From Microvirga sp. Mcv34 (GTDB taxonomy: Bacteria > Pseudomonadota > Alphaproteobacteria > Rhizobiales > Beijerinckiaceae), in contig NZ_JALJRK010000006.1 in NCBI RefSeq assembly GCF_024519725.1, forward strand, positions 62,001 through 126,000: 64,000 bases of DNA. The letters are read 5' to 3'. A model generated the notes under the pieces. That model was not told the DNA's origin and searched no databases. It was given only the letters and a program-made list of their open reading frames with translations. Below are positions 34,332-60,880 of the stretch, one piece after another. Every line of letters begins with the position of its first letter. Position 1 is the first letter of the stretch. Both the position numbers and the translations under genes were made by a program.

Positions 34332-34415
34332 CTCGAGCATTTTCGGCGAAGTGGATCCGGTCCACCGTCAAAGCAAACAAGAGAGCTGAAGCCATACCAA
34401 TGGAAACAGCTCTAG
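34332..34415. repeat. Interspersed palindromic repeat, copy 2 (84 bp)
   Basis: The ends are CTCGAGC and GCTCTAG. The core GGCGAAGTGGATCCGGTCCACC and the terminal stem (GAGCTGAAGCCAT with ATGGAAACAGCTC, imperfect) match copy 1 at 32001-32097, with about 13 bp deleted in the middle. The right end supplies the TAG stop codon of the minus-strand phosphatase gene at 34412. Confidence 0.85.
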
Positions 34416-35041
34416 ACGGGAGCATGATCCAGACCGCGCGTTCTCAGGTCGTCAGGTGACACAGTGAAGTTGAATGCGACAAGGCGCGCTTTGTGCGACG
34501 GCGCCAAGGGATCAACATCGAAGATCGTGATCGCTGCCGACGCTACTGGTGAAAGTTGGGACGGACCCAAGCCGACCAGAACGTCGCAGGCCGCCCGGAC
34601 CACGCCCTCATGCGCCACGATTACAACATCGCCGTCGGCATGGTCGATGGCCGCGTGCATCGCTGCGCTGACACGTTCCCGAAACGGCAGCCATTCTTCA
34701 CCGCCCGGCGGCGTGTAGAGTCCGAGGCGCCAGTCGCGATAGGCGCCCCGATCGGATGCCTCGATCTGCTCGATCCATTGACCTGCCCAGTCGCCGAGAT
34801 CCATCTCGCGCAGGCGCTCATCGGTTGAAAATTCGGCAAAGCCAAGAAGTTCTGCCGTATGGCGCGCCCTTCTCAGATCGGAGGATACGATGTAGCTGGG
34901 AGCGGGACCGCCTGCGAAGAACATCGCCGCGCGCCGCGCCTGCTCGATGCCACGTGGTGACAGGGGGGCATCCGCATGTCCCTGCAAACGGCGCTCCGCG
35001 TTCCACAAGGTCTCGCCATGACGCACGAGGATCAATCTCAC
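34412..35041 (-). CDS. Histidine phosphatase family protein (phosphoglycerate-mutase-like)
   Basis: The 209-residue enzyme begins MRLILVRHGETLWNAERRLQGHADAPLSPRG, the RHGE motif with the phosphorylated His. The second catalytic His is in VVIVAHEGVVRAA. Members are broad phosphatases (SixA/CobC/PhoE types) or cofactor-dependent mutases. It is 30 bp downstream of the HAD phosphatase and closes a run that begins with an ABC importer, suggesting a role in dephosphorylating imported esters. Its stop codon lies inside the palindromic repeat, so the extreme C-terminus may be altered. Confidence 0.88.
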   Translation of the reverse strand: MRLILVRHGETLWNAERRLQGHADAPLSPRGIEQARRAAMFFAGGPAPSYIVSSDLRRARHTAELLGFAEFSTDERLREMDLGDWAGQWIEQIEASDRGAYRDWRLGLYTPPGGEEWLPFRERVSAAMHAAIDHADGDVVIVAHEGVVRAACDVLVGLGPSQLSPVASAAITIFDVDPLAPSHKARLVAFNFTVSPDDLRTRGLDHAPV

Positions 35042-35071
35042 GGCATAAGTCTCCAGGCTGTGTTCAGAGGC

Positions 35072-35740
35072 TCACGCGGCCGCGGTCTTCGTCACGATTG
35101 ACAGCAGATCGGGCATGGCGTCGATCAGTCGATCCGCGCCCAATTCAGCATGAGGCTTGTGGCTGTAGCCGTAGGTGACAGCGAAGGCCCGCACGCCTGC
35201 CGAGCGGGCCGCCTGCACGTCGTGATAATTGTCGCCGACCATGAGCGCCGCCTCGGGTGCGACGCCCAGTTGGTTCAACGCCGCCAGGATCGGAGCGGGG
35301 TGCGGCTTGCGCTCGGGAAGCGTGTCGCCCCCGACGACCGCATCGAAGAAGGCGCGCAGGTCGAGCGCCTCCAGAATTGCGATGGTGGCCCCGTAGGGCT
35401 TGTTGGTGACGACCGCCAGGGGAAGTCCAAGACTGCGCAGGCCGGCCAGCGTATCTGCGACACCGGGATATGCCTCGGTATGGTGGGACGCCTTGCCCTC
35501 ATAGATCTGGAGGAAATGTGCGACAAGTGTAGGCAGACGCGACAGGTCTCCTCCCGTCGCCGAGACGGCCCGCTCCACGAGCTTGGCCGCTCCGTCGCCG
35601 ATCATGGATTTGACCTCGACGAGGTCGATCGGACGAAGGCCCTCGTGCGCTAGGAGGATGTTCACCGCGTCCATCAGGTCGCGGGCGCTGTCGACCAGGG
35701 TTCCGTCCAGGTCGAAAATGATGGCTTTCAGGGGAGACAT
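35072..35740 (-). CDS. gph: HAD-family hydrolase, phosphoglycolate phosphatase-like
   Basis: The start is the ATG at 35740 (222 residues). The frame opens 12 codons earlier but MSPLKAIIFDLDGTLVDS is the standard beginning. The nucleophile/acid motif DLDGT, the Thr of motif II (AVVTNKP), the Lys of motif III (ERKPHPAPI) and the acidic motif IV (ALMVGDNYHD) are intact. The helical cap with EVKSMIGDGAAKLVERA is typical of Gph. It hydrolyses 2-phosphoglycolate or related phosphates. It follows an ABC importer ATPase by 87 bp on the same strand and precedes a histidine phosphatase. Confidence 0.85.
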   Translation of the reverse strand: MSPLKAIIFDLDGTLVDSARDLMDAVNILLAHEGLRPIDLVEVKSMIGDGAAKLVERAVSATGGDLSRLPTLVAHFLQIYEGKASHHTEAYPGVADTLAGLRSLGLPLAVVTNKPYGATIAILEALDLRAFFDAVVGGDTLPERKPHPAPILAALNQLGVAPEAALMVGDNYHDVQAARSAGVRAFAVTYGYSHKPHAELGADRLIDAMPDLLSIVTKTAAA

Positions 35741-35827
35741 GCGGTCGGTACTAGCGTTCGGAGAAAGGCGTGGCAATGGCGGAAGGATGCGTCCCTTCCG
35801 CCCGGCGGCAATGTTGCGCGGGGCCTC

Positions 35828-36925
35828 TCAGGCGGCGAGCCAGAGGGCGGAGCGCAGAGAGAGGCCGATCTCGACGGCGGAGCCCGGCTGGCGGAGCGCT
35901 TCTCCCGAGTGGAAGGGCGTATCGATGGAGACTTCCGCCGCCCCGATCTTCACCCCGTATCGAAGGGTGGACCCGAGGAACTCGCTGTGCACGACGGTGC
36001 CTGGCAGAAGGACGTCGCCCGTGCCGCCTCTACCAAGAGAAGCGTGCTGGGGCCGGAAGACGAGCTTGGCCTCGTCGGGCACGATAACGTGCGTCGGGAT
36101 CGGCAGGCGAACCCCACCATCGATGTCGAAGAAACGCTCGCCTCCCACGCGGATTACGCGCCCTGGCAGGATGTTTGCGGTGCCGAGGAAGTTCGCGACG
36201 AACAGATTGGCGGGCTTCTCGTACAGCTCCATGGGCGTGCCGACCTGCTGCACGATACCGTCATTCATGACGGCGATCCGGTCACAGATCGTGTTGGCCT
36301 CCTCCTGATCGTGCGTGACGAAGATCGTCGTCAGGCCGAGGCGCTGCTGCAGGTCGCGCAGCTCCCGACGAACTTGCACGCGCATCTTCGCATCAAGATT
36401 GGACAAAGGCTCGTCGAGAAGCAGCACCTTCGGCTCGATCGCGATGGTGCGCGCGACCGCGACACGCTGCTGCTGGCCACCGGAAAGCTGGGATGGGCGT
36501 CGGTCGGCCAGATGGGCAAGGCCGACGAGTTCCAACGCAGCGGCGACGCGCCTGTCGATCTCGGCCTTCGGAACCTTCCGCTCCTCCAGGCCGAACGCGA
36601 CATTGCGTTTGACTGTCATATGCGGCCACAGGGCATAGGATTGAAAGACCATGCCCACATCGCGCTTCCAGGGCGGAAGGTGAGCCACGTCGCGGCCACC
36701 GACCAGGACCTCGCCGCCATCGGCCTCGTTGAATCCTGCGATGAGGCGCAGAAGCGTCGTCTTTCCGCAGCCGGACGGCCCGAGGAAGGCGAAGAACTCA
36801 CCGGGCCGGATGTGCAGGTTGATCCCCTTGAGAACATGATTGGCGCCATAGGACAGGTCGACGTTGCGGATGTCGACGTCGACCGCCTTGGTTTCAAGGG
36901 ACGTGATGGGAAATGGCTGGTTCAT
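35828..36925 (-). CDS. ABC transporter ATP-binding protein, Fe3+/AfuC/PotA type
   Basis: The start chosen is the ATG at 36925 (365 residues); the open frame to 37489 lies over the permease gene. Walker A is GPSGCGKTT, the signature [15 protein letters not shown], Walker B VLLLDEPLSNLDAK. A C-terminal TOBE-type regulatory domain (about 245-360) is present. This subfamily energises Fe3+ and sugar-phosphate (AfuABC) importers. It follows the permease gene after 29 bp. Confidence 0.92.
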   Translation of the reverse strand: MNQPFPITSLETKAVDVDIRNVDLSYGANHVLKGINLHIRPGEFFAFLGPSGCGKTTLLRLIAGFNEADGGEVLVGGRDVAHLPPWKRDVGMVFQSYALWPHMTVKRNVAFGLEERKVPKAEIDRRVAAALELVGLAHLADRRPSQLSGGQQQRVAVARTIAIEPKVLLLDEPLSNLDAKMRVQVRRELRDLQQRLGLTTIFVTHDQEEANTICDRIAVMNDGIVQQVGTPMELYEKPANLFVANFLGTANILPGRVIRVGGERFFDIDGGVRLPIPTHVIVPDEAKLVFRPQHASLGRGGTGDVLLPGTVVHSEFLGSTLRYGVKIGAAEVSIDTPFHSGEALRQPGSAVEIGLSLRSALWLAA

Positions 36926-36954
36926 GGGTGTGATTTCCTCCGGCACGGACGCGT

Positions 36955-38697
36955 TCAGCGTCCGACCGCCTTGGCCTTTTGGCTTCTTTCGATGATCAGA
37001 TGAGACGCGAAGGTGCACACTGCGACGAGCAGCACGGCGATGACGCCCAACGCCGCACCAGGACCCCGGCCCGCCGGCGACTGCATGAAGACGTAGAGGC
37101 CGTAGGCGAGAGGCGCGTCCGAGTTCGATTGGACGAGCATCAGCGTTGCCGAGAGCTCCACGGCCGCAGTGGCGAAGCTCGTGACGAAGCCTGCCAGAAT
37201 GCCGCCGCCCATCAGCGGCAGCACGATGCGACGGATCGTGCGCAGCTTCGTGGCGCCGAGGTTCTCGGCCGCCTCTTCGAGAGAGACCGAGATCTGCTGC
37301 AGGGCCGCGTAGCAGGCGCGCAGTGCATAGGGTAGGCGTCGGATCGCCAGCGCCAGTACGATCATGATCCAGAGAGCCGCAAGCGGAGTGCCGTCGGGCA
37401 GTTGCACGCCATAGAATGTGCGCAGATAGCCGATGCCGAGCACCACTCCTGGGATCGCCAGAGCAGCGGTGGCAGCCCAGTCCAGCCATTCGCGGCCGAT
37501 CAGCTTCGTCCTTAGCACGAGGTAGGCGATAGCCGTGCCGAGAACCACGTCGATCAGGCCCGCGATGGAGGCATAGATCATCGTGTTCTTGACGTACACG
37601 AAACTCTCGCCGAACACGCGCCCATAATGAGCCAGGGTATAGGCATCAGGCAGCGGGCTGAAGGACCAGACGGTCGCGAAGGAGAGCAGCAGGAGACCGA
37701 GATGCGGCGCCAGGACAAGGAACAGAATGAGCAGGACAGCCCCATAGGCGACGGCGCTTTCCCAGGGCCGCATCCGGCGCTTCGCCAGACCGCCACCGCC
37801 GCGCTGCACCGTGGCGTAGTCCTTCCCGCGCATGGCCCGCGCCGAGATCCACATGGCCAGGATCGACATGCAGATCAGCACCACGGAGATCACGTAGCCC
37901 ATCGGATCCGCGATGCCGATGGAGGTGACCCGCAGATAGGCTTGCGGGGCGAGCATGTCCTTGACATTCAGGAGCAGCGGCGTGGCCAGATCGTCGAAGA
38001 CCTTGACGAAGACGAGCGATGCTCCCGCGATGTAGCCCGGCATGGCGAGCGGAAACACGATGCGACGGAACAGGCGGAAACCGGAGCTGCCGAGATTCTG
38101 CGCCGCCTCCTCCATAGCTCGGTCGATGTTGCGCAACGCGGCCGAGAGATTGATCAGGATAAAGGGAAAATAATGCACGGCCTGAACGAAGATGACACCG
38201 TTCAAGCCTTCCATGAAGGGGATCTTGATACCGAGCCAATCGTCGAGGAGCAGGTTCACCGATCCATTGCGGCCGAACAGCAGGAGCATCGCGACCGCTC
38301 CGACGAAGGGAGGCATGATCAGCGGGAGAAAGCCGAGCGTCTGGATCAGCATTGCGCCGCGGAACTCGAAGCGCGTGGTGATATAGGCGAGCGGCAGCGC
38401 GAAGACCGATGCGACGACAACCGACATCGCGGATACATAGACGGAATTCCAGAACGAGCGGATGAACAGGTCTGTCCGCGCGAAGTCGAGGAAGTTGACG
38501 AGAGTGAACTCACCTGTGCCCTTCTCCGTGAAGGCGACGTAAATCACCGTTCCGACGGGAACGACGAGGAAAAGAAGCAGGAAGAGGGCAATTCCGAAAG
38601 CCAGAGCGATCTGCCCCGGCGATGCCAATAGCCTTTTAAAATTGCCGGAAGAGGTGGACGACGCTCGTGCTCGCCCGGCAGTGGTGGCGCCAGCCAT
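36955..38697 (-). CDS. ABC transporter permease with two fused TM domains, Fe3+/AfuB type
   Basis: ATG at 38697 follows GAGGAGAG. The 580-residue membrane protein has about twelve helices in two homologous halves. Each half carries an EAA loop: MEEAAQNLGSSGFRLFRRIVFPLAMPG in the first and LEEAAENLGATKLRTIRRIVLPLMGGG in the second. It would form the complete channel for the binding protein encoded upstream. It is the second gene of the putatively sigma-54-driven operon. Confidence 0.92.
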   Translation of the reverse strand: MAGATTAGRARASSTSSGNFKRLLASPGQIALAFGIALFLLLFLVVPVGTVIYVAFTEKGTGEFTLVNFLDFARTDLFIRSFWNSVYVSAMSVVVASVFALPLAYITTRFEFRGAMLIQTLGFLPLIMPPFVGAVAMLLLFGRNGSVNLLLDDWLGIKIPFMEGLNGVIFVQAVHYFPFILINLSAALRNIDRAMEEAAQNLGSSGFRLFRRIVFPLAMPGYIAGASLVFVKVFDDLATPLLLNVKDMLAPQAYLRVTSIGIADPMGYVISVVLICMSILAMWISARAMRGKDYATVQRGGGGLAKRRMRPWESAVAYGAVLLILFLVLAPHLGLLLLSFATVWSFSPLPDAYTLAHYGRVFGESFVYVKNTMIYASIAGLIDVVLGTAIAYLVLRTKLIGREWLDWAATAALAIPGVVLGIGYLRTFYGVQLPDGTPLAALWIMIVLALAIRRLPYALRACYAALQQISVSLEEAAENLGATKLRTIRRIVLPLMGGGILAGFVTSFATAAVELSATLMLVQSNSDAPLAYGLYVFMQSPAGRGPGAALGVIAVLLVAVCTFASHLIIERSQKAKAVGR

Positions 38698-38768
38698 GGA
38701 CGCTCTCCTCAACAGTCAAGAAGTGCCTTTGACGGGCGGCTCGGCGATGCGAGCCGCCCGATGGACGA

Positions 38769-40091
38769 TCAGCGGGCCAGCTTCTGGGCCTGCTCGGCCT
38801 TGGCCTGGGCCTGCTGATAGCGTTCCTTCGCAAAGGCAGCCCATTTCTGCTCGAGCTCGGCCTGACGGGCGCCCTTCTCCTTGCCGCCCGTGAAGGCGCC
38901 GGCGATTTCAGGCGACGAGGCCTCCTGCTCGGTCACAGGCATGGCGGCGACAAGGTCGCGGGCCTCCTTCACCAGGGCTTTGGCGTCCGCGTTGTCCTTC
39001 TTGGCGATTGCGGCCTCAGCGTCCTGGATGGCCTTGGTGGCTCCCTTGAGGGCTTCGAGCTGGAACGTCACGGTCTGGTCGTAGAGCACGTCGACGACGT
39101 TCGTGCGCTTCTCCGAAATGTCTACGTTGAACTTCACCCGCGCCCCGAGGGACGGATCCTTGAAGGGGTTCGGGTAATCAGCCGGAGCCTTGGCATAGAT
39201 GGCCGGGTTCACGGGAAGACGGCGGATGCTCGGCTCGAGCAGAACCTCCTGGCCGGCGGAAGACACGAGATAATCGACGAAGGCCTCGGCCCCAGCCTTG
39301 TTGGGTGCATTCGCGATCACACCCACGTTCGCCGGCACAATGGTGGTGACCGTCGGATAGACGAACTTCACCGGGAAGCCCGATGCTTGGGACGAGAAGG
39401 CGAAGAAGTCGATCACGATGCCGAGGCCGACCTGTCCCGAATTGACGGCTTCCGGAACGCCGAAGGAGCGCTCGGTGATCTGGCGGAAGTTGCCGGAGAC
39501 TTCTTTCAGCGTGCGCCAGCCTTGATCCCAGCCCTCGCCCTGGAGGATCGTCTCGATGGTCAGGTGCGTCGTGCCGGAGCGCGAAGGCGCCGCCATGGCA
39601 ACGTGATCGAAGTAGATCGGCTTGGCGAGATCCTGCCAGTCCTTCGGATCGGGCAGTTTGTTGGCCTTGGCGTAGCGATCGTTCCACATGATGCCGTAGC
39701 CGGAAGCCGCAAAGCCGGAATAGAAGTTCTCCGGATCGTTGATGGGATAAGAACCAATCTTGTCCGGAATACCTTCGGCCTTCGGCTTGTACTTCTGGAG
39801 CAGACCCTTGCCCTTCAGGACCTCGAAGGCATCCGGGGCAGAGGCCCAGAATATATCGACCTGGTTGTTGCCCTTCGTCTCCTCGACGAACTTCACGCCC
39901 GCATTGGTGTTACGGTTCTGCACATCGAGCGTCACACCCGGATGCGCTTTCTCGAAGGCCTGCTTGAACGGGTCGGTCACATCCTTTGAGAACGAGGTCA
40001 CCACAGTGACTTTCCCGGACTGGGCAAAGGCGACGCCCGTGAACAGGGCAGTACCGATCAATGCCGCCGCGGCGACAGAATGGCGAAGCAT
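38769..40091 (-). CDS. Periplasmic substrate-binding protein, Fe3+/AfuA/PgtC-like, with C-terminal extension
   Basis: The 440-residue protein has a signal peptide (MLRHSVAAAALIGTALFTGVAFAQ). The binding domain has VTVVTSFSKDVTDPFKQAFEKAHPGVTLDV, FWASAPDAFEVLKGKG and APSRSGTTHLTIETIL. From about residue 345 a long helical, Ala/Lys/Glu-rich tail follows (KDNADAKALVKEARDL ... ELEQKWAAFAKERYQQAQAKAEQAQKLAR), absent from ordinary iron-binding proteins. A paralogue with the same layout lies in the adjacent sensor operon. Tyr residues for Fe3+ coordination are not arranged as in FbpA, and AfuA relatives bind sugar phosphates. The gene is first in the operon, 64 bp from a -24/-12 promoter. Confidence 0.88.
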   Translation of the reverse strand: MLRHSVAAAALIGTALFTGVAFAQSGKVTVVTSFSKDVTDPFKQAFEKAHPGVTLDVQNRNTNAGVKFVEETKGNNQVDIFWASAPDAFEVLKGKGLLQKYKPKAEGIPDKIGSYPINDPENFYSGFAASGYGIMWNDRYAKANKLPDPKDWQDLAKPIYFDHVAMAAPSRSGTTHLTIETILQGEGWDQGWRTLKEVSGNFRQITERSFGVPEAVNSGQVGLGIVIDFFAFSSQASGFPVKFVYPTVTTIVPANVGVIANAPNKAGAEAFVDYLVSSAGQEVLLEPSIRRLPVNPAIYAKAPADYPNPFKDPSLGARVKFNVDISEKRTNVVDVLYDQTVTFQLEALKGATKAIQDAEAAIAKKDNADAKALVKEARDLVAAMPVTEQEASSPEIAGAFTGGKEKGARQAELEQKWAAFAKERYQQAQAKAEQAQKLAR

Positions 40092-40154
40092 CAGTTTCCT
40101 CCAACTTGATGGCTTTTGACTTGGGCCCGCACGAAGGCGGCCACGAAGCCATAA

Positions 40155-40170
40155 GCAATAAGCGTGCCAA
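40155..40170 (-). promoter_or_regulatory. Sigma-54 (-24/-12) promoter
   Basis: On the minus strand this reads TTGGCACGCTTATTGC, matching the sigma-54 consensus TGGCACG-N4-TTGC at all key positions, including the GG and GC dinucleotides with correct spacing. It lies 64 bp upstream of the binding-protein start at 40091, and the gene just upstream encodes a sigma-54 activator. Transcription would start near 40143. Confidence 0.85.
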
Positions 40171-40228
40171 CCCCGGCCGCATCGCTTCGCGCTCGTTTGA
40201 AGGAGGAATTGTCAGGTGCAACACACGA

Positions 40229-40240
40229 ATGGTCTGCCAT
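40229..40240. promoter_or_regulatory. Candidate upstream activator site
   Basis: ATGGTCTGCCAT has 4-bp perfect arms around TCTG and lies about 90 bp upstream of the predicted sigma-54 start, a normal enhancer distance. The spacing fits the linked response regulator, but the sequence is short and unproven. Confidence 0.35.
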
Positions 40241-40291
40241 ACGGGAAAGGATGGTAACGCTCCCTACCCGCCATGGGACAGATATGTAACG

Positions 40292-41641
40292 TCAGGTCTC
40301 GATCTCTCCCGGCCGGCCGAGATCGTATTTCCTCATTTTCAGATAAAGGGTTTTGCGCGTGATCCCGAGTGCCTCCGCAGTGGCGCCGATGCGCCCGGCG
40401 AAGCGCACGAGGGTTTCTTCGATCACGCGGCGTTCGGCGATCTCCATCTGCCGCTCGAGAGTCGGCATGCCATCGAGGTTCAGCGCCGCATGAGGCGGCT
40501 CGTCCTCGTCGAGGCCGAGAAGATACCGCTCGGCTGCATTGCGCAACTCGCGCACATTGCCGGGCCATTCCTGCTGCTGAAGCCTTGAGAGGAAAGACGG
40601 ATCGAGTGACGGCGCCGCCCTCACTTGGCGGGCGGCCGCGAGATGGAGGAAGTGGGTGAACAGCATGGGCACGTCCTCCCGCCGCTCGCGGAGAGGAGGG
40701 AGGCGGACTGTGACGACATTCAGCCGATAGACCAGATCCTCACGGAACGCGCCTCTGCCGGCGAGTTGGGTGAGATCCGCCTTGGTGGCCGCAATGACAC
40801 GGATGTCGACAGGAATCTCCTTGTTCGATCCGATCCGCTCGATGGTTCTCTCCTGAAGAACGCGCAGAAGCCGGATCTGGGCCGTCATGGGCATGGACTC
40901 GATCTCATCGAGAAAGAGTGTGCCGCCGCTCGCATGCTCGATCTTGCCGATCCGTCGCTCACGGGCTCCCGTGAAAGCGCCAGGCTCATGACCGAAGAGC
41001 TCGCTTTCGATCATGGTCTCTGGCATTGCACCGCAATTGACCGCCACGAAGCGACCGTTCCGACGTCGTCCGAAATCGTGGAGAGCGCGGGCAGCAACCT
41101 CTTTGCCCGTGCCCGTCTCGCCGAGGAGGAGCACGTCGGCCTCGGCATCCGCAAGGGTCCGGAGATTGCGCCGCAGCCGTTCGATGGCGGCGGAACGGCC
41201 GATGAGCCGGCCTGTAATCGAATCGTGATCGGCACCCCCTGCCCTGAGGGACCGGTTTTCGAGGATGAGGCGCCGGTGCGCAAGAGCGCGCCTGACAGTC
41301 TCGACGAGCCTCACAGGATCGGCCGGCTTCTCGATGAAATCCCAGGCTCCGCCTCGAACCGCCTTGATCGCCATCGGCACGTCGCCATGCCCGGTCACGA
41401 GGATGACCGGGATCTCGGAATCCACCGCGCGGACTGCATCGAGAAGGGCAAAACCGTCGAGCCCAGGCATCCGGACGTCACTCACGACGGCGACGGGCAG
41501 ATCGGGTGACAGGATCTCGAGCCCAGCATTGGCCGAGCCCACGGCCGCGACGTCGAATCCATCGAGCTCCAGCGTTTGCCGGTAAGCGTCCAGAACTTCC
41601 TGATCGTCGTCCACGAGGACGACCTTCGTCTCCGCACTCAT
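40292..41641 (-). CDS. Sigma-54-dependent response regulator (PgtA/DctD-like)
   Basis: The 449-residue activator has a receiver domain (residues 1-120, phospho-acceptor D55 in VVSDVRMPG). An AAA+ domain follows, with Walker A GETGTGKE, the sigma-54-contacting GAFTGA loop (EPGAFTGARERR) and Walker B GTLFLDEI. A C-terminal FIS-type helix-turn-helix (ATAEALGITRKTLYLKMRKYDLG) ends it. Its start overlaps the kinase stop by four bases. A sigma-54 promoter lies just past its stop, making the ABC operon its obvious target. Confidence 0.93.
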   Translation of the reverse strand: MSAETKVVLVDDDQEVLDAYRQTLELDGFDVAAVGSANAGLEILSPDLPVAVVSDVRMPGLDGFALLDAVRAVDSEIPVILVTGHGDVPMAIKAVRGGAWDFIEKPADPVRLVETVRRALAHRRLILENRSLRAGGADHDSITGRLIGRSAAIERLRRNLRTLADAEADVLLLGETGTGKEVAARALHDFGRRRNGRFVAVNCGAMPETMIESELFGHEPGAFTGARERRIGKIEHASGGTLFLDEIESMPMTAQIRLLRVLQERTIERIGSNKEIPVDIRVIAATKADLTQLAGRGAFREDLVYRLNVVTVRLPPLRERREDVPMLFTHFLHLAAARQVRAAPSLDPSFLSRLQQQEWPGNVRELRNAAERYLLGLDEDEPPHAALNLDGMPTLERQMEIAERRVIEETLVRFAGRIGATAEALGITRKTLYLKMRKYDLGRPGEIET

Positions 41642-43542
41642 GACCTGGTCGCCACCAGATGGATCGCAAAGGTCGTTCCCGTCGGTCCTGTTCTCGCCAA
41701 AATCAAGTCTCCTCCGAAGTCTTTGACGATATTGTACGACATTGAGAGGCCGAGACCGAGTCCCAGGCCTGCGGGCTTGGTGGTGAAGAACGGATCGAAG
41801 ATGGCGGCACGGTGCTGCTCCGCAATGCCTGGTCCATTATCAGTCACGGCCAGGTGAACGTGACCTCCCATGACGTGAGCCCCGATGTCGATGCGTCTCT
41901 CCGCCAGTCCTTCGAGGACATCCAGTGCGTTCGAGATCAGATTGACGACCACCTGCTCGAGTCTCACCTCCTCGGCGAGGACAGACAGCGGACCATCGGG
42001 AAAGCTCAACCGCACGGCGACTTTCTCCTCGTCGAGGCGCTGCTCGAACAGGCTCAGGGCTCCTTGGACCACCGCGTGGAGATCGACGGCCTCGAGACTC
42101 GTTGCTGGGCGGCGAGCGAAACGCTTGAGATGCTTGATCAGCTCGGCCATCCGGGCGGTCAGGCCCTGGATTCGGTCCAGGCTCGCCCTCGCCTCTTCGG
42201 CACGGCCGCGTTGGAGCAGCACAGCACCGTTATAGGCGTGTGAGCGGATCGCCGCGAGCGGCTGATTCAGCTCGTGGCTGATGCCGGCGGCCATCTGGCC
42301 GAGCGCCGCGAGCTTGGCCGCCTGGACCAGATCGTCCCGGGTCTGCCGGAAGACCGTGAGAGCCTTGGCGAGATCGCCAAGTTCGTCGTTGGTGGGAAGT
42401 GGCAGGACCGGCATCGTGGGACCGCTCGCAATAGTCGTCGCTGCCAGCGTCAGTTCCTGGAGGCGCACGACCAAGTTTCGGCGGATATAAAACCAGCCGA
42501 TTGCGACCGTGATGGCCAGTGACGCGGCGGCGATGGCCAGAAGGAGATTGCGTCCGATCACGATGGCGGCCGCGGAGCGTTCCGCGGCCCTGCGCGCGAT
42601 CGCTTCCGTGCGACTGACCTCCTGCGATACGAGCGTACCGAGCTGGGTGACGAGACGCCGGTTCTCGGCGAGAAGCGCCTGCGCGTCGGCAATGGCTTCG
42701 AGCTCGGCCCGCTTCACGGCCGCCAGGCCCAATATCGGATCCGAGACGGCCAGCAGGCGCGCCGCGATTTGGCTGATGGTGATCGTATCCGTCCAGCTGG
42801 CGAGCGCCTTGGTTTCCAAATCGAGCTGATCCGTCATTTCACCGAGGAAGTTGCTCGTCTCCTGAAGGTCCTCGGCCGTCGGCACGGTGCCGAGCCGCCC
42901 TAGCAGTCCCACGATTAGGTTAGCATGGGCATTGATGGTCAGGAGGGCTTCGCTCTTGCGGCTCTCCTCCAGCAGCGTCTTGCGCCCGGCCTCGGCGGCC
43001 TCGCCCGGAGCAACCCTGCTAATGGCGGTCTCCATGTTGAAGCGAGCGTCGTCGATGAGCGGCTCGATCTCTTCGATCAGGTCAGCCTGCAGCCATCGCA
43101 ACTCTTCCCCGATTTCCCGCGAGCGCTCGTGCAGCGGAAAGCGCCGGTCGGCGACCTGGTCAATCGACTTGAGATTGGCCTCGATCCCGTCCTGCACGAC
43201 GAGAAGCTCGGGCGAGAGTGAGTGTTCGTCGCTACGTTCGTTGAGAACCGACCGGAGAACGGCCAAACGCTCGACGAGCGTCTGGCGAATGCGGTCGTAC
43301 GCTTCGCGCCGCTCCGCAACCGCGAGATCGGGCGTGCTTGCGATTACATTCGCTCCCGCCTCCGCGAGGCGGGCCGAGAAAGCGAGAGCCGGGAGATGAT
43401 CCGTCGCGACGGAACTCAGCTCTGCGCTGAGACGAGCGTAGGATAACCAGCCCACGATGCAGGCGCCGACCGCAAGCCCACCCACGGCGAGAAAGGAGAT
43501 GGTCAGGCGTCCGCCAATCCCGAGCCGCTTCCGCCGGATCAT
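41638..43542 (-). CDS. Sensor histidine kinase (PgtB-like) with large periplasmic domain
   Basis: The 634-residue kinase has TM1 at about 12-34, a mainly helical periplasmic region at about 35-328 and TM2 at about 329-352. A HAMP linker and a HisKA domain follow, with the phospho-acceptor H423 in AAGISHELNQPLAAIRSH. The HATPase domain has NLISNALDVL, VTDNGPGIAEQ and GLGLGLSMSYNIV. It overlaps the neighbouring genes by four bases on each side, so the binding protein, kinase and regulator are made together. The helical periplasmic part may contact the co-encoded binding protein rather than a free ligand. Confidence 0.92.
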   Translation of the reverse strand: MIRRKRLGIGGRLTISFLAVGGLAVGACIVGWLSYARLSAELSSVATDHLPALAFSARLAEAGANVIASTPDLAVAERREAYDRIRQTLVERLAVLRSVLNERSDEHSLSPELLVVQDGIEANLKSIDQVADRRFPLHERSREIGEELRWLQADLIEEIEPLIDDARFNMETAISRVAPGEAAEAGRKTLLEESRKSEALLTINAHANLIVGLLGRLGTVPTAEDLQETSNFLGEMTDQLDLETKALASWTDTITISQIAARLLAVSDPILGLAAVKRAELEAIADAQALLAENRRLVTQLGTLVSQEVSRTEAIARRAAERSAAAIVIGRNLLLAIAAASLAITVAIGWFYIRRNLVVRLQELTLAATTIASGPTMPVLPLPTNDELGDLAKALTVFRQTRDDLVQAAKLAALGQMAAGISHELNQPLAAIRSHAYNGAVLLQRGRAEEARASLDRIQGLTARMAELIKHLKRFARRPATSLEAVDLHAVVQGALSLFEQRLDEEKVAVRLSFPDGPLSVLAEEVRLEQVVVNLISNALDVLEGLAERRIDIGAHVMGGHVHLAVTDNGPGIAEQHRAAIFDPFFTTKPAGLGLGLGLSMSYNIVKDFGGDLILARTGPTGTTFAIHLVATRS

Positions 43543-44906
43543 GGCCGCAGAGCCTCCGGTCTCGCGTCACGGCCGGCATTGTCCAGTCGCGCAGATGCGG
43601 CGGTCAGGGCGCGTGCCGCTCTCTGCATATTGTCATCGATCCGTGCCTTGATGTCTTCTTCGAGCCGGGCCTGGGGTTCGGGCGTGGGAAGCCCCCGTGG
43701 CACGCGCACGAGGTCCCTCCAGCGTTCCAGCTCCATGGCCTCCGCTCCGTTCAGTGGCGGTCGTGTCAGGGCATCGCGAGCATCGCTCACGAGCCTCGCC
43801 ACCTCAGCGTCCGATCGTTCCGCCAAAGCCGCCTCAAGCAAGCGCACGGAGCGCCACAGCCGCACTAGTTCGGATCTGCGAAAGGTCACCATCTCGTCGA
43901 AAATGATATTGACCAGCTCATATCGTGCGGCCGAAAGGCTGGCGTCGAAAAGGCTTTTGGTGAAAAGCCCATTCTGTTGGAATGGATTACCGTCCGATGT
44001 CCCGTCGGCCCGATAGACGACCGGAGAAATCGGCAATCGCGCAACCGCAGGATCGAGCAGCAGCGCTTGGCCTTCGGGCGACAAGACGAAATCGACAAAG
44101 CGTTCGGCACCGCTCCGATTGGCCGCGTCGGTTAGAATCGCGATGCTGGCGGGCACGAACAGCGTCTCCTCTGGAAGAGCAAACCGGGTAGATCCCTTCG
44201 GCATGCCCTCCGGGTTCGCGAGGAAGTCGATTGACGGACCAATCCCGAACCGACCGCGGGCAACCCCAGCAGCGACGCCGAAGCTGCGTGCCGTCACGGT
44301 CGCGAGATTGCCACCAACCTCAGACCACATGCCCCACCCGCGGTCCCACCCGTAGACCTGGAGAATGGCCTCGACCATGAGGTGCATCGTACCCGACCGC
44401 GACGGGGAGCTGATGCCGATATGTCCGGCATAGATGGGGGCCGCGAGATCACCCCAGCGTTTTGGGACCGGCAATTCCCGCTGCTCGATGTAGTTGGGAT
44501 TGTACACGAACCCGTAACCCGACAGGGCAAAACCGAGATATGTTAGGTCCGGATCGTTGACGGGATAGCCGGCGATTAGGTCCGGCGCTCCCGTGGAGCG
44601 GGGCTTCAACACGGCCAGCCGTCCTGCGCGCTTCAGGATCTCGAAAGCATCCGGCGCCGACGCCCAGAAAATGTCGGCCCTGTGCCTCCCGCCCGCGATG
44701 TCGGCGATGGCCGTCGTCGTCTTGCGCTGGACGAATTCAAGGGAGATTTCAGGATTGCGGGTGCTGAAAGCGGTTTGGAACAGTTCGAGAACCTGCGGCG
44801 GAAAGGATGTCAGGACACGCACCTTTTCAGCCGCCATGGCCGTCGCGGCGGTCGGGACCGCAGGGGCGAGCAATACAGCCAGGCAAAAGAAGAATGTGCG
44901 AACCAT
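43539..44906 (-). CDS. PgtC-like periplasmic binding protein of the sensory operon
   Basis: I start at the ATG at 44906 because it begins a proper signal peptide (MVRTFFFCLAVLLAPAVPTAATAMA); the frame is open to 44963. The 455-residue protein is a paralogue of the importer binding protein at 38769-40091. Matching segments include VRVLTSFPPQVLELFQTAF, DIFWASAPDAFEILKRAG and ISSPSRSGTMHLMVEAIL, and it shares the unusual helical C-terminal tail. No permease belongs to this operon. By analogy with Salmonella PgtC, which acts with PgtB/PgtA in induction, it is probably the ligand sensor. Confidence 0.87.
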   Translation of the reverse strand: MVRTFFFCLAVLLAPAVPTAATAMAAEKVRVLTSFPPQVLELFQTAFSTRNPEISLEFVQRKTTTAIADIAGGRHRADIFWASAPDAFEILKRAGRLAVLKPRSTGAPDLIAGYPVNDPDLTYLGFALSGYGFVYNPNYIEQRELPVPKRWGDLAAPIYAGHIGISSPSRSGTMHLMVEAILQVYGWDRGWGMWSEVGGNLATVTARSFGVAAGVARGRFGIGPSIDFLANPEGMPKGSTRFALPEETLFVPASIAILTDAANRSGAERFVDFVLSPEGQALLLDPAVARLPISPVVYRADGTSDGNPFQQNGLFTKSLFDASLSAARYELVNIIFDEMVTFRRSELVRLWRSVRLLEAALAERSDAEVARLVSDARDALTRPPLNGAEAMELERWRDLVRVPRGLPTPEPQARLEEDIKARIDDNMQRAARALTAASARLDNAGRDARPEALRP

Positions 44907-45040: not shown

Positions 45041-45859
45041 TCAGAACAGCGTCTCCCGTATCGTCCTCCAGCTTTCAGCGTCGGGAGCGCAGATAATGCC
45101 TCCGGTATGAAGGGTTGGGCGATATGGTGATCCGTCGAACCGTGCGGAATATCCGCCCGCTTCGCGATGGAGGAGCCAGCCGGCCGCGTGGTCCCACGGC
45201 ATGAGCTTCGATTGAACAAGGAAATGGCTATGCCCGGCGGCTGCCATTCGATACTCGTGTGCGGCGCAGCGATAACATGCGACGGCTCCGAATCCGGTCA
45301 GGTTCGCCGCCACGGTCGATCGCATGGGTTCCTGCATATGATTCCAGGATGCACAGCCTGACATCTCCTGAACGGGAAGCGGAGCTGCGACCCGGAGGTC
45401 GACACGAGCGCCGGACATCTGGATCCACGCCCCCTCTCCTCGAATGGCAATTGCGGTGTCATCGCCGACCGGGTCATGAATCCAACCGGCAACGATCTCT
45501 CCCCGCATCACGGCTGCCACCATCACCCCGAACAATGGAAGACCCGAAGCAAAATTCTTGGTTCCGTCCACCGGATCGATCAGGAGAGCAAGCTCTGCAT
45601 CCGCCAGCTTATTCAGCAGCGAGGGATCACGCTCCGCGGCCTCCTCGCCGACCATCACAGCCTGCGGGAAGATTCGTCTCAGCCCGCTGCTGATCATCCG
45701 TTCGGCTGCCTCATCGGCATCCGTCACGAGATCCAAGGCCGACGATTTTTGCCGGACCTCGTGGGCTGCCAGGTTCCGGAAGCGGGGCATGATCTCGACC
45801 CTTGCGACTTCGCGGAGAAGCTGATCCACAGCTTCGGCATCACGGGTCGAGAACGGCAT
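45041..45859 (-). CDS. Inositol monophosphatase family protein
   Basis: The 272-residue enzyme has all family metal-site motifs: GEEAAE, LLIDPVDGTKNFASG and WDHAAGWLLHREAGG. It hydrolyses small phosphomonoesters such as inositol-1-phosphate or histidinol phosphate with Mg2+. It is the last gene of a LacI-linked importer operon and sits next to a second family member, with which it shares only moderate similarity. Two such genes in tandem suggest two related substrates. Confidence 0.88.
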   Translation of the reverse strand: MPFSTRDAEAVDQLLREVARVEIMPRFRNLAAHEVRQKSSALDLVTDADEAAERMISSGLRRIFPQAVMVGEEAAERDPSLLNKLADAELALLIDPVDGTKNFASGLPLFGVMVAAVMRGEIVAGWIHDPVGDDTAIAIRGEGAWIQMSGARVDLRVAAPLPVQEMSGCASWNHMQEPMRSTVAANLTGFGAVACYRCAAHEYRMAAAGHSHFLVQSKLMPWDHAAGWLLHREAGGYSARFDGSPYRPTLHTGGIICAPDAESWRTIRETLF

Positions 45860-45947
45860 GGGGAATCGCTTTCATAGTATCCAGGATGGTAAAATTCCGG
45901 ACGCTGGACAGGATAGAGTTGTCGCCATTCTGCATCGAGGATCCGAG

Positions 45948-46778
45948 TCAGGTCATTCCCATCGCTTTGACGAGAGAGTCCTTCAAGCCCGAGGTGCAGC
46001 CGAGCACGATGTTGCCGTCGCGCAGGCCCGCATCGGCAAGGAAGTCGTTCGCCCAGCCTCCGGCTTCCTCGATCAACAGCAGCCCGGCCAATGCATCCCA
46101 CGAGTTCATGTGCAGTTCGCAATAGCCGTCGATCCGGCCGGCCGCCACATAAGCGAGGGCGAGCGCGCCGGATCCGCCGCGCCGGACGCCGGCCCCATCC
46201 GCCAAAATCCGGTCCACGAGTTCGACATATCGGGTGAGTGGCAGGCGGGTCGACCAGCCCGCCTCGATGGTCGCCGATTGCATATCGGCCAAACCGCTGA
46301 CCCGGATCGGCTCGCCATTCAGGGTTGCTCCCCCGTCGCGCTCCGAAGCGAATAACTCGTCATGCATCGGATCGTAGATGATCCCGATCTGCATCCGACC
46401 ATCGCGGACATAGGCAATGGAGATGCAGAACTGCGAAATGCCGCGCACGAAGTTCGCGGTGCCGTCGATAGGATCCACCACCCAGACATCGCGGTCGAAC
46501 GATCCTCCCCCCTCCTCACCGAAGAAGGCATCCTCAGGAAAGCTATCCAGCAATCGCATTCGGATCAGGTTCTCGACCTCTGCGTCGACAGCCGAGAGGT
46601 AGTCCTGATGGCCTTTGAGATTGATGCCGGTCGTGCCCGGACGCCCGTTGAAACGGCGGCGGGCCAAGGCCCCGGCTTCGCGAGCAACCGCGCATGCAAC
46701 GGAGAATCTGAGATCGGCTCTCTCTGCTACAGGCAAAGAAGCAGTATCTGAAGCCCTGGCAATGTTCGAGAAGGCCAT
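45948..46778 (-). CDS. Inositol monophosphatase family protein
   Basis: The 276-residue enzyme has GEEGGG, VWVVDPIDGTANFVRG and WDALAGLLLIEEAGG, so the metal-binding Asp/Glu residues are all present. An N-terminal helix (FSVACAVAREAGALARRRF) is typical. It starts 15 bp after the tyrosine-phosphatase gene and is followed by the other family member. Context suggests hydrolysis of an imported phosphate ester rather than inositol biosynthesis. Confidence 0.9.
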   Translation of the reverse strand: MAFSNIARASDTASLPVAERADLRFSVACAVAREAGALARRRFNGRPGTTGINLKGHQDYLSAVDAEVENLIRMRLLDSFPEDAFFGEEGGGSFDRDVWVVDPIDGTANFVRGISQFCISIAYVRDGRMQIGIIYDPMHDELFASERDGGATLNGEPIRVSGLADMQSATIEAGWSTRLPLTRYVELVDRILADGAGVRRGGSGALALAYVAAGRIDGYCELHMNSWDALAGLLLIEEAGGWANDFLADAGLRDGNIVLGCTSGLKDSLVKAMGMT

Positions 46779-46793
46779 AAGGGTCTGTCCTGG

Positions 46794-47417
46794 TTATCGA
46801 ATGGTGGAAATGGCCGGCGGGGCGTCATGCTTATCGCTCTCGATCCGCTGGATCCAAGCAGCTGCGTAACGTGCGGCCGCGATCAGCATCGGCTTCGGCG
46901 TTTCCATCCATTCATCGGGGTGAAGCTCGCGCGTGACACGCAGGTGGTCGATGGCGGAATCGAGGTTCGGGAAGCGGTCAGGAAGCTGGACATGGATGTA
47001 TAGGGCCGCGAGGATCACGGATCGGCTGCGACCGCCGCGGCAGTGCAACAGGACATTGCCGCGGCGCCGATGGGGATAGGTGCAGCGGTCGGGCAGTTGC
47101 TGATGGAGAGCGCCGTCGAGCAGGTAATAGCCTGCAAGCAGCATCGTGTCCGGGTTACCCGCATCGTCGATGAGGCCAAGCTTGTAGTTTCGAACCGGTC
47201 CGTGAGGCGACGCGATTTCCGAGGCTCCCACGCCGGCCGTGTAGTCAATGTCGAGATTGACGGCGCAGTTCACCACGATGGCGATGTCGTTCATCTCGAG
47301 CATTTCCCTGTCCGAAGCCGCGTTTGCGTCCCCGACATAGAGCTTGACGCCAAAGGGCGGGAGATCATCGACGATCAGGCTCATCGGAGGACGGGGAAAG
47401 TTGAACTGGGTTGCCAT
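46794..47417 (-). CDS. Tyrosine/dual-specificity phosphatase-like protein
   Basis: The start taken is the ATG at 47417 (207 residues); a start at 47438 is possible. The cysteine phosphatase P-loop is clear as NVLLHCRGGRSRSVILAALY (HCx5RS). An upstream Asp in YKLGLIDDAGNPD is a possible general acid. Such domains dephosphorylate proteins, phosphoinositides or inositol phosphates. It lies between an ABC ATPase gene and two inositol-monophosphatase genes, which favours a small-molecule phosphate substrate. Confidence 0.82.
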   Translation of the reverse strand: MATQFNFPRPPMSLIVDDLPPFGVKLYVGDANAASDREMLEMNDIAIVVNCAVNLDIDYTAGVGASEIASPHGPVRNYKLGLIDDAGNPDTMLLAGYYLLDGALHQQLPDRCTYPHRRRGNVLLHCRGGRSRSVILAALYIHVQLPDRFPNLDSAIDHLRVTRELHPDEWMETPKPMLIAAARYAAAWIQRIESDKHDAPPAISTIR

Positions 47418-47471
47418 CTTATATCCTAAACTCTTCAACGTATTGCCGCGACAGTCGGAGGCGTTCTGCCT

Positions 47472-48596
47472 TCAGGCCGCATGGGATGTTCCGAGAACTT
47501 GTTGTTGCAGTGCGACCCGGTTTCCGGCCTTGTCGAAGAAGGTGAGCTGGTCAGCGGGAAACTCGATCCAAATGTTCTTCCTCGACAAGGAGGTTTCGAA
47601 GCGCGGAATGAGCGCCGTGACCCGGTGTCCCTTGACCGAGAGAGAAATGATCGTCTGCGACCCGGTGGGCTGAACGACGTCGACTTCGGCCGGCAGACTG
47701 AACGGACCCTGCCGCTCGACGATCGTGATGTTCTCCGGGCGGATCGCGAACGTCACGGGGCCGTCCCCGCATTGCAGACGCGCCGGAGCGGGAATATTGC
47801 TGTCCTCGAAGCGCACGACGCGTTCGCTGCCGTTCGTGCTCAGAACTCCTTCGAAAAGGTTGATCTTGGGATCGCCGATGAACTCGGCAACGAAGAGATT
47901 GGCGGGATTGTGATAGATTTCATATGGCGATCCCTGCTGCTGGATAACGCCGTCCTTCATCACGACGACTATATCCGACATGGTCAGCGCCTCGACCTGA
48001 TCGTGCGTGACATAGACCGTCGTCGCCTGCAACTCACGATGCATGCGCTTCAGCTCCGTCCGCATCTCGGTCCTGAGCTTCGCGTCGAGGTTGGACAGAG
48101 GCTCGTCCATGAGCAGGATTGAGTTGCGTGCCGCGATCAGACGGGCCACAGCGACGCGCTGCTGCTGACCACCCGATAGTTCCGACGGATAGCGGTCGGA
48201 TAGTCCCGTCAGCTGGACCTTCGCGAGTGCCTCGGCGAGACGATCCTCAATCACCTTCTTTGGCTGCTTCGCCTCCGAGAGCGCCAAGGTGATGTTCCGG
48301 TCGACCTTCATGTTGGGCCAAAGCGCATAGCTTTGGAAAATGAAGCCGAGTCCGCGCCGCTCGGGCGGAACGAAAACGCCGGTACCGCTGGAATAAACCG
48401 TCTTGCCGCCAAGCACGACCTCCCCCGTAGTAGCCTGCTCGAGGCCCGCGATAACGCGCAAGGTCGTGGTCTTGCCGCAGCCTGACGGTCCGAGGAGGGT
48501 CACGAAACTTCCCTTCGGAATGTCGAGGTCCAGGCTCGGAAGGGCCAGATGGCTTCCGTACGACTTGGTGATGTTTCTGAGGGTGATTTCAGACAT
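47472..48596 (-). CDS. ABC transporter ATP-binding protein, Fe3+/AfuC type
   Basis: The ATG at 48596 gives 374 residues; a GTG two codons earlier is an alternative. Walker A GPSGCGKTT, signature [15 protein letters not shown], Walker B ILLMDEPLSNLDAK and a C-terminal TOBE domain (VTFAIRPENITIVERQG) are all present. It is similar to, but clearly distinct from, the ATPase at 35828-36925. It serves the permease and binding protein encoded just upstream. Confidence 0.92.
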   Translation of the reverse strand: MSEITLRNITKSYGSHLALPSLDLDIPKGSFVTLLGPSGCGKTTTLRVIAGLEQATTGEVVLGGKTVYSSGTGVFVPPERRGLGFIFQSYALWPNMKVDRNITLALSEAKQPKKVIEDRLAEALAKVQLTGLSDRYPSELSGGQQQRVAVARLIAARNSILLMDEPLSNLDAKLRTEMRTELKRMHRELQATTVYVTHDQVEALTMSDIVVVMKDGVIQQQGSPYEIYHNPANLFVAEFIGDPKINLFEGVLSTNGSERVVRFEDSNIPAPARLQCGDGPVTFAIRPENITIVERQGPFSLPAEVDVVQPTGSQTIISLSVKGHRVTALIPRFETSLSRKNIWIEFPADQLTFFDKAGNRVALQQQVLGTSHAA

Positions 48597-48631
48597 GGGC
48601 ACTCTCTCGTGCGGAAGCCATTCGGAACGGG

Positions 48632-49870
48632 TTAGCGGCTCGTCTCGGCCATCCAGAAGTCACTGATCTTCGCGATGTTGTCCCTCACGAATTCAGGCGA
48701 TGCCGTGAGCTTCCGAGCCTTGGGCCACATTTCGCTGTAGGGCGGAGGCGGAACGTCGGTGCGCGGCGAAAAGGTGCCGACCTGATAGAATGCCGCCATG
48801 CCCTGCAGGAGTTCAAGGGACTTCCCGGACCGGAACGGTGCCTTCAGTTCCGAGTTGCCGCTCAGATCCTTGCTGCCCATAAGGAAAGCCACGAAGAGTT
48901 TCGCGGCATTCGGATGCGGCGCCTGTCCAGCGACCGCCACAAAGGTCGGGTAGGAGAACAGGGCCGACGGCGTCAGGTCATAGGGAACCGCATTCGCGTA
49001 GTTGTCGCTCTGGTTCTTGGTCAGATAGTGGATGACCGAGAATGCCATCGGCGGCTTGGCCTGGCCACGAAGACCAACGGCTGTGGCAATCTTCGAGCTG
49101 TTGTCGGAGATGACGATATCGTTTGCGATCAGCCGGTGAAGGAACTCGTAGCCGGCGTTCTCGACTCCGGATGTGAGTTCTAGCTTCTTGCCATAGTGCT
49201 GCTCGTAGGCCTTCTGCATGTCGTCGGAATGCTCGACGATGGCCGCCAGCATCATCAGCGTCGTGAGCGAGCCAGCCGGTGACTTCATGGAGAAACGACC
49301 CTTCCATTGCGGCTCGGTGAGCTCCCATAGGGTCTTGATCGGCGGCTGCGGGTGGGTTTCCGAATTGTAGAAGACACCATAAGCCTCGATCACGTGCGTC
49401 AGCAGAGGCTCGCGGTGCTCCGCAGGGATCTTGTCCGTCAGGTAGGAAGGCACGTAATTGACGATGCGGTGATTGGGGAGCAGGTCGAACACCATCTGTT
49501 CGGTGCCACCTGAATAGACAACGTCAGCCGCATACACACCGGCCTGATGCTCACGCACGATCTTCTCGATGGTCTTCTCAGAGCCCAGATCATAGGCCTT
49601 GACCTTGATCTCCGGATGGAATTTCGCGAAATCCTCGGCAACCTTCAGCATCGTGCCGGTGGAGGAATAGACAACGACCTCTCCCTCCTTCTTTGCATTG
49701 GCGATGACCTCGTCCCAATTCTCGTTCTTCTGGTAAGGGCCGAGCTGGCTCTTCTGCAACCAGGCGTCCCATTTCGGGTCGGATGTCTGCGCAAGTGCCG
49801 GCGCCACCAATGCGAGGCTAAGGGCGCCAGCAGCGATCCATGTTCCGGCGCTGCGAAATGTCAGTGTCAT
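48632..49870 (-). CDS. Periplasmic substrate-binding protein, Fe3+/AfuA type
   Basis: The 412-residue protein has a signal peptide (AGTWIAAGALSLALVAPALAQ). The family-1/AfuA-like binding domain has GEVVVYSSTGTMLKVAEDFAKFHPEIKVKAYDLGSEKTIEKI and ADVVYSGGTEQMV. It lacks the long helical tail of the two PgtC-like paralogues, so it belongs to a different clade. In Actinobacillus, AfuA of this superfamily binds hexose phosphates rather than iron. The phosphatases downstream suggest a phosphorylated ligand here. Confidence 0.88.
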   Translation of the reverse strand: MTLTFRSAGTWIAAGALSLALVAPALAQTSDPKWDAWLQKSQLGPYQKNENWDEVIANAKKEGEVVVYSSTGTMLKVAEDFAKFHPEIKVKAYDLGSEKTIEKIVREHQAGVYAADVVYSGGTEQMVFDLLPNHRIVNYVPSYLTDKIPAEHREPLLTHVIEAYGVFYNSETHPQPPIKTLWELTEPQWKGRFSMKSPAGSLTTLMMLAAIVEHSDDMQKAYEQHYGKKLELTSGVENAGYEFLHRLIANDIVISDNSSKIATAVGLRGQAKPPMAFSVIHYLTKNQSDNYANAVPYDLTPSALFSYPTFVAVAGQAPHPNAAKLFVAFLMGSKDLSGNSELKAPFRSGKSLELLQGMAAFYQVGTFSPRTDVPPPPYSEMWPKARKLTASPEFVRDNIAKISDFWMAETSR

Positions 49871-49918
49871 GATGGGCTTCCTCCTTCTCTTCTCGTTACG
49901 ACAAGTTAAATCAAAGCT

Positions 49919-56180: not shown

Positions 56181-56192
56181 GAAAATTCTGCC

Positions 56193-57113: not shown

Positions 57114-57115
57114 GA

Positions 57116-58027: not shown

Positions 58028-58095
58028 GTCTAATCTCCGCTCGACAGACAGGATGCGGCACTGATCCGGATTCGGACCAGTGCCGCTTCGCTCGA

Positions 58096-59415: not shown

Positions 59416-59450
59416 TCTGATGTCCTCCCATTTGATCCTTCTCTCCCGCT

Positions 59451-60833: not shown

Positions 60834-60860
60834 TGACCCCTCACTCGCGATACATTTGCA

Positions 60861-60880
60861 TATTGTGTATTACAATTGTA
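60861..60880. promoter_or_regulatory. Candidate SorC operator in divergent promoter region
   Basis: ATTGT-GTATT-ACAAT is a perfect 5-bp inverted repeat, and the overlapping TACAATTGTA (60871-60880) is a 10-bp perfect palindrome. Both lie in an AT-rich patch 28-47 bp upstream of the G1P-dehydrogenase-like start and in the divergent gap before the SorC gene. Confidence 0.5.

Follow-up and report, generated by a model that had tools for sequence, protein, structure and literature searches.

The gene unit described here lies in a window of 64,000 nucleotides, the whole stretch that was analysed, from the 6.18-Mb draft genome of Microvirga sp. Mcv34 (contig NZ_JALJRK010000006.1). On the minus strand, from 44906 to 34412, eight genes follow one another in the order sensory substrate-binding protein, histidine kinase, response regulator, importer binding protein, fused permease, ATPase, haloacid dehalogenase (HAD) phosphatase and histidine phosphatase (Table 1). 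Control of the ATP-binding cassette (ABC) importer by the sigma factor RpoN (sigma-54) is well supported by comparison of related loci. With moderate confidence, we consider the unit a ligand-inducible, ATP-driven importer of small phosphorylated carboxylates, i.e. phosphoenolpyruvate (PEP), 2- or 3-phosphoglycerate and possibly phosphoglycolate. Gene order, homology, co-occurrence of promoter and activator, covariation of the GAFTGA motif, pocket residues and neighbouring genes were read directly from the sequences.

Probable sigma-54 control of the importer operon

An earlier note on this DNA had described an importer operon of binding protein, fused permease and ATPase with a -24/-12 promoter. 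All of these parts are present. The promoter matches TGGCAC-N5-TTGCW exactly at 40169-40154 and is located 62 bp ahead of the importer start codon. In the window 22 sites match this pattern with at most two mismatches, which does not exceed chance (mean 26.65); the importer site alone has no mismatch. Thus, only the test for conservation carries weight. The regulator contains GAFTGA and an AAA+ Walker A motif, and RpoN is encoded in the genome.

For the conservation test 79 loci were fetched via the sensory protein, the best 80 of 199 relatives being retained, and the 350 bases preceding the gene of the importer protein were scored for the promoter. With the activator gene adjacent, 67 of 69 loci showed the element with at most one mismatch and all 69 with at most two. 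Over-extended starts of open reading frames (ORFs) were corrected for L113, L116, L117, L133 and L169, each of which then had at most one mismatch. The promoter was also exact in all four loci with an aspartate-alanine antiporter gene between regulator and importer. Combined, 71 of 73 loci with activator and importer have the promoter at one mismatch or less. The loci with the antiporter insert belong to Azospirillum and to a record titled Roseomonas (L137, L139, L144, L145, L087), and their element is exact. Furthermore, 18 copies outside this count, which include one plasmid and at least eight repeats of loci of the 79 set, were scored: 13 had at most one mismatch, four had two and one (Paracoccus denitrificans) had four. 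The element is exact as well in front of an Aminobacter importer that is separated from its regulator by about 11 kb on one plasmid.

Importers without the cassette of sensory protein, kinase and regulator were examined in the same way. No site with two mismatches or less was found for the six importers without such a regulator in the stretch (L046, L058, L073, L074, L075, L168; three or four mismatches each). For three importers near an unrelated locus of a tripartite ATP-independent periplasmic (TRAP) transporter (L051-L053) the best sites had two, four and four mismatches, none of them reaching one or less. Hence, none of the nine cassette-free copies has the promoter at this level. In eight of these nine genomes no second, sensory protein was found at E <= 1e-20 or 1e-40; L168 was not searched genome-wide. 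As control, a site with no more than one mismatch turned up in 19 of 1580 random stretches of 380 bases from the 79 loci, and part of these may be the true promoters. No probability is attached to the association, because the promoter copies are related by descent.

The 79 loci hold 76 regulators, of which 71 carry GAFTGA, three GSFTGA, one GAFTSA and one GAFTNA. Activators without GAFTGA go with genes without the promoter, and promoter and cassette are lost together. As the promoter occurs with the activator, is missing without the cassette and covaries with GAFTGA, the control of the importer by this regulator and RpoN, as the earlier note had supposed, is well supported at the level of sequence. 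Against it stand P. denitrificans and P. zhejiangensis, in which the layout is present and both promoter and GAFTGA are missing. Thus, RpoN control is not universal.

The kinase-regulator pair on the TRAP side of L051-L053 was considered as another coupling of the cassette and rejected. Its kinase has a Cache domain (read in L053) and matches in the kinase core only, and no sensory binding protein adjoins. The pair was dropped from the claims on covariation and portability. Its regulator has GAFPGA in place of GAFTGA, and no -24/-12 element was found ahead of the TRAP genes.

A sensor trio related to PgtC, PgtB and PgtA

The genes of sensory protein, kinase and sigma-54 activator form one operon, as previously noted, and both junctions are overlaps of 4 bp. 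Pairwise comparison established the homology of this trio to PgtC, PgtB and PgtA over most of the protein lengths. The sensory protein shares 30-31% identity with the proteins in PgtC position of Providencia and Vibrio fluvialis (E 1e-49 and 2e-48), the kinase 25% with PgtB of Escherichia coli over 656 positions (E 2e-45) and the regulator 36% with E. coli PgtA (E 5e-83). The kinase, which has two hydrophobic segments about 300 residues apart, scored 225.7 bits with the PgtB model NF047794, under its cut-off of 1000 bits (68.9 bits for the N-terminal part alone). For the regulator 329.6 bits were obtained with the PgtA model NF047793 (cut-off 650). Kinase and regulator are thus homologues of PgtB and PgtA outside both NCBIfam equivalogs, and proteins of the C, B and A types are encoded in one operon.

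In Salmonella, PgtC, PgtB and PgtA respond to 3-phosphoglycerate (in passages of PMC11077982), and deletion of pgtP impairs growth on phosphoglycerate or PEP (in passages of PMC10715179). The PgtABC-PgtP systems of Salmonella and other enterics agree with the Microvirga unit in the order C-B-A with short overlaps, in the set of secreted binding protein, kinase and regulator, and in the pocket residues R171, S172, R208, S209 and D228. In contrast to the enteric systems, an ABC importer that brings along a PgtC-like binding protein takes the place of the antiporter PgtP of the major facilitator superfamily (MFS), a replacement already recognized in the earlier note, and two phosphatases are added. 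PgtP was not found as regulated transporter within the unit; the remainder of the genome was not searched for it.

A contact with sigma-54 was proposed for Salmonella PgtA (in passages of PMC11077982). PgtA of E. coli (L178, 1302-2549), Providencia (L089, 11166-12413) and V. fluvialis (L090, 11538-12803) contains neither Walker A nor GAFTGA, and the best -24/-12 site at the transporter promoters of these three pgt loci has at least four mismatches, whereas the Microvirga activator has both motifs and a target promoter. Motif-less PgtA and missing promoters in these species would speak against the proposed contact, and the analogy to Salmonella does not extend to the sigma-54 step.

Within the order, 47 of 297 genomes contained relatives of the sensory protein at E <= 1e-20, many of them weak; at E <= 1e-40 they were detected in 16 of 61 genomes, the own genome included in both counts. 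The nearest ones belong to Microvirga (seven listed loci, 75-83% identity). All eight genes occur in the same order in the seven other genomes of the genus that have the sensor; three more (G302, G321, G329) contain the importer protein without it. A layout of ten genes, as expected earlier, was not conserved: the upstream inositol-monophosphatase operon lies alongside in just one of the seven genomes (G331) and was set aside as part of the unit. Among the 79 loci, which by title are mainly from Hyphomicrobiales and Azospirillum with few Gammaproteobacteria, 69 show the first six genes of the unit, from sensory protein to ATPase, in unchanged order. Four (L137, L139, L144, L145) show all but the ATPase, the stretch ending within the permease. 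Trio genes with no importer within the stretch were found in L119 and L131; the stretch of L160 stops within the importer protein, those of L123 and L165 break off in the trio, and L168 is an importer without cassette. L156, a contig titled as a euryarchaeotal metagenome-assembled genome (MAG), carries the unit too; its binding proteins adjoin those of the gammaproteobacterial MAG L169 in the tree, and the contig is probably misbinned. No publication on the combination of this sensor with an ABC importer was found among the matches listed from the open-licence PMC literature, mostly judged by title, which does not prove its absence from print.

Binding proteins and candidate ligands

The matched domain ends near residue 300 in both binding proteins, and each continues for another 140-155 residues. 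In a tree of 160 such proteins the 77 transport proteins grouped in a single clade (SH-aLRT 100), which the sensor proteins did not. In a tree of 50 sequences with five outgroup proteins the transport clade was supported with 100/97, and the sensor group was one clade in 0% of 200 bootstraps. Both trees place the transport proteins in a nested position among the sensor proteins. In the approximately unbiased (AU) test, uniting all sensor and PgtC proteins with those linked to tripartite tricarboxylate transporters (TTT) cost 3.24 log-likelihood units and was not rejected (p 0.161), for a group that was picked after seeing the tree and with long branches present. The single transport clade supports one duplication that would separate sensory and transport proteins. 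An origin of the transport protein from the sensor protein is the better-scoring direction, still unproven.

By sequence, the closest PDB relatives of both proteins are 8x1a, P5PA and AfuA. Contacts of AfuA and P5PA with their ligands were taken from passages of PMC4546632 and PMC8427247, and the corresponding positions were read by hand from the alignment. The phosphate-binding Ser-Gly-Thr is retained as S172-G173-T174, and T62 stands at the position of Ser37/Thr37. Of the sugar determinants of AfuA, His205, Asp206 and Glu229, two are replaced (I227, D228, V252). R171, S172, R208, S209 and D228 are present in all 78 sensor, 77 transport, two TTT-linked and two PgtC sequences, one sequence of unassigned role being left out. 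R171 and R208 adjoin the phosphate and sugar positions in the sequence and occur in none of eight control proteins. Seven of these controls are weak relatives, three of which do not differ from one another in the displayed columns; the eighth is the binding protein of the second importer in the window. Conservation of T62 and G173 does not extend to both PgtC proteins (Ser and Ala; Asp in one).

The genes downstream were recorded for the 70 loci with the ATPase in view, some histidine phosphatases being called by the RHGET motif alone. HAD and histidine phosphatase occur together in 19 loci, histidine phosphatase alone in 17 and HAD alone in one (L125, with a weak histidine phosphatase match there too). 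Pyruvate kinase follows in two loci and together with histidine phosphatase in two more. Thus, one or both phosphatases were found in 39 of 70 loci and pyruvate kinase in four, from three lineages: Devosia, Pseudochrobactrum and a MAG titled Proteobacteria bacterium BEIJ4. Pyruvate kinase also follows the MFS gene in the pgt-like locus of V. fluvialis. These pyruvate kinases point to PEP or compounds one step away, whereas the phosphatases point to release of phosphate. Both types of neighbours would be reconciled if the imported ester served as carbon source in some lineages and as phosphorus source in others.

The HAD protein of Microvirga was identified in the earlier note as Gph-like, and indeed it exceeds the cut-off of TIGR01449 (213.2 versus 180 bits) as the sole one of nine matches in the genome, while NF009695 was narrowly missed (215 versus 225). 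A phosphoglycolate phosphatase activity can be predicted for this member of the Gph-like family. Phosphoglycolate as ligand is perhaps indicated by this protein, its sole basis, which was unseen in 50 of 70 loci. The last gene, described before as phosphoglycerate-mutase-like, does encode a phosphatase, though a rather short histidine phosphatase, for which the best NCBIfam model is CobC-type and below cut-off (115.2 versus 162.9 bits).

Several points weigh against phosphorylated carboxylates as ligand. The invariance of both arginines in the sensor proteins is partly built in, because the two patterns used in gathering the 79 loci include the R171 and R208 stretches; in a set collected without patterns both arginines were found in 47 of 48 sequences (one gap) and D228 in 44 of 48. 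In 29 of 70 loci neither a phosphatase nor pyruvate kinase was detected, one of them with just 167 bases checked. Since PEP and phosphoglycerates can be utilized without a phosphatase, phosphorus scavenging or a different ester accords better with the phosphatases. The same wiring of sensor, sigma-54 and ABC importer could serve the uptake of another organophosphate, such as a sugar, glycerol or inositol phosphate, with phosphate supply as the main purpose. The PDB relatives AfuA (hexose phosphates) and P5PA (pyridoxal phosphate), the frequent phosphatases and the Ugp-like genes, inositol monophosphatases and further importers within the window agree with this explanation. We consider it unlikely, since the His205/Glu229 positions of AfuA are Ile/Val in all 77 transport proteins, the pocket matches PgtC and not AfuA, pyruvate kinase occurs as neighbour, and the inositol-monophosphatase operon accompanies the unit in G331 only. 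An AfuA-type sugar phosphate was set aside on pocket residues and neighbour genes.

AfuABC and P5PA share the ABC and binding-protein superfamily and the Ser-Gly-Thr site with the Microvirga importer, but the importer protein of Microvirga has about 140 residues beyond residue 300. In the passages on AfuABC no PgtABC-like trio appears; the only regulator mentioned with it is a two-component system for fucose sensing, encoded on the same island of E. coli. By the criteria tested the unit is outside the families of PgtABCP and AfuABC; by analogy, it may work like PgtABC joined to an AfuABC-type importer. A similar design is described in PMC10384115 for CuaDSR-CuaABC of Ruminiclostridium cellulolyticum: there, a two-component system and a dedicated sensory binding protein govern an ABC importer, which uses a separate binding protein. 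That system differs in its ligand, cellobiose, and the resemblance is one of design.

An unphosphorylated polycarboxylate or a phosphonate, with the phosphatases as passengers, seems a quite unlikely ligand. TTT systems usually carry carboxylates, and in two genomes (L043, L045) a like cassette of binding protein, kinase and GAFTGA regulator stands ahead of TTT genes with a promoter of zero and one mismatch; TctC/B/A of L045 were confirmed by Pfam. Hence, the ligand may be unphosphorylated in some lineages. Furthermore, the leading NCBIfam labels of the importer are those of the putative 2-aminoethylphosphonate importer PhnS2, PhnU2 and PhnT2, but all scores are below the curated cut-offs (TIGR03261 125.8 versus 392.75, TIGR03265 384.6 versus 457.7, TIGR03262 166.8 versus 593.25 bits). 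None of the eight proteins is above the cut-off of a phosphonate-degrading family in Pfam or NCBIfam, the Ser-Gly-Thr phosphate site is retained, and the phosphatases recur across several lineages.

Import of ferric iron, as the automatic annotation 'iron ABC transporter permease' and product names in plasmid records suggest, is highly improbable. The fold family is common to FbpA-type proteins, and 8x1a, which both binding proteins match best in the PDB, is named iron(III). The option of Fe3+ binding, which the earlier note had mentioned, is weakened to this extent: AfuA and P5PA match the importer protein with E 1e-14 to 1e-16, most iron-named proteins more weakly with 1e-4 to 1e-6, but the top match is iron-named. 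The iron ligands of FbpA include an adjacent Tyr-Tyr pair. Such a pair is absent from both binding proteins in a plain reading of the sequences, without residue alignment to FbpA. Iron transport was set aside on these residues and on the linkage to phosphatases and pyruvate kinase.

Features of the window and proposed mechanism

Table 1 Features of the eight-gene unit (positions in the window)
Feature	Position	Strand	Basis
PgtC-like sensory binding protein, 455 amino acids (aa), signal-peptide-like start	43539..44906	-	Pfam SBP_bac_6, 80.6 bits
PgtB-like histidine kinase, 634 aa	41638..43542	-	best NCBIfam model PgtB NF047794
Sigma-54-type response regulator, 449 aa; GAFTGA, Walker A, Fis-type helix-turn-helix	40292..41641	-	Pfam, motifs
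-24/-12 (RpoN) promoter TGGCACGCTTATTGCT, ahead of importer operon	40154..40169	-	exact match, conserved in relatives
ABC importer binding protein, 440 aa, paralogue of sensory binding protein	38769..40091	-	SBP_bac_6, PDB relatives, trees
Fused ABC permease, 580 aa, one ORF, two BPD_transp_1 stretches	36955..38697	-	Pfam
ABC ATPase, 365 aa	35828..36925	-	ABC_tran plus TOBE_2 (Pfam)
Gph-like HAD phosphatase, 222 aa	35072..35740	-	TIGR01449 above cut-off
Histidine phosphatase, 209 aa	34412..35041	-	His_Phos_1, 159.9 bits

Further genes were observed in the window. A second importer at 45041-51754 (minus strand) comprises fused permease, binding protein and UgpC-like ATPase and continues with a dual-specificity-phosphatase-like gene (29.1 bits, below the cut-off of 33.5) and two inositol monophosphatases; it is perhaps an uptake unit for inositol phosphate. 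At 55434-62081 UgpB-like (375.6 bits, cut-off 411) and permease genes are located with a glycerophosphodiester phosphodiesterase, a glycerol-1-phosphate-dehydrogenase-like gene and a regulator with sugar-binding domain, which makes this the third importer of organophosphate type within about 25 kb. An ORF of 399 aa at 13816-15015 (plus strand) presumably resembles an IS256-type transposase.

For the ligand, the docking, the phosphotransfer, the direction of import and the role of the phosphatases we infer the following course. The secreted PgtC-like protein would capture the ligand, dock on the periplasmic domain of the PgtB-like kinase and alter the activity of the kinase. The kinase would phosphorylate the sigma-54 activator, which together with RpoN would open the -24/-12 promoter ahead of the importer operon. 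The paralogous binding protein would then feed the fused-permease ABC importer, and the HAD and histidine phosphatases would free phosphate from the imported compound. The sensor domain of TorS meets a binding protein in TorS, and the TTT-linked kinase of L045 matches this domain (Pfam, 36.6 bits, cut-off 27). This match fits the docking step.

A fuller account can be offered tentatively, being doubtful as a whole: the ABC importer would serve for PEP and phosphoglycerates, a PgtC-like sensor would have been duplicated once, one copy remaining with the kinase and the other becoming the feeder of the importer, and the cassette would be portable across ABC, TTT and MFS transporters, with sigma-54 control kept or lost along with the promoter. 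If this is true, an ATP-driven route for the uptake of phosphoglycerates and PEP would exist besides the antiporter PgtP. A widespread family, in which the permease carries the annotation of iron transport, would gain a function. Furthermore, the unit would be a clear example of two binding proteins, one for sensing and one for transport, that derive from one gene and are retained in one locus.

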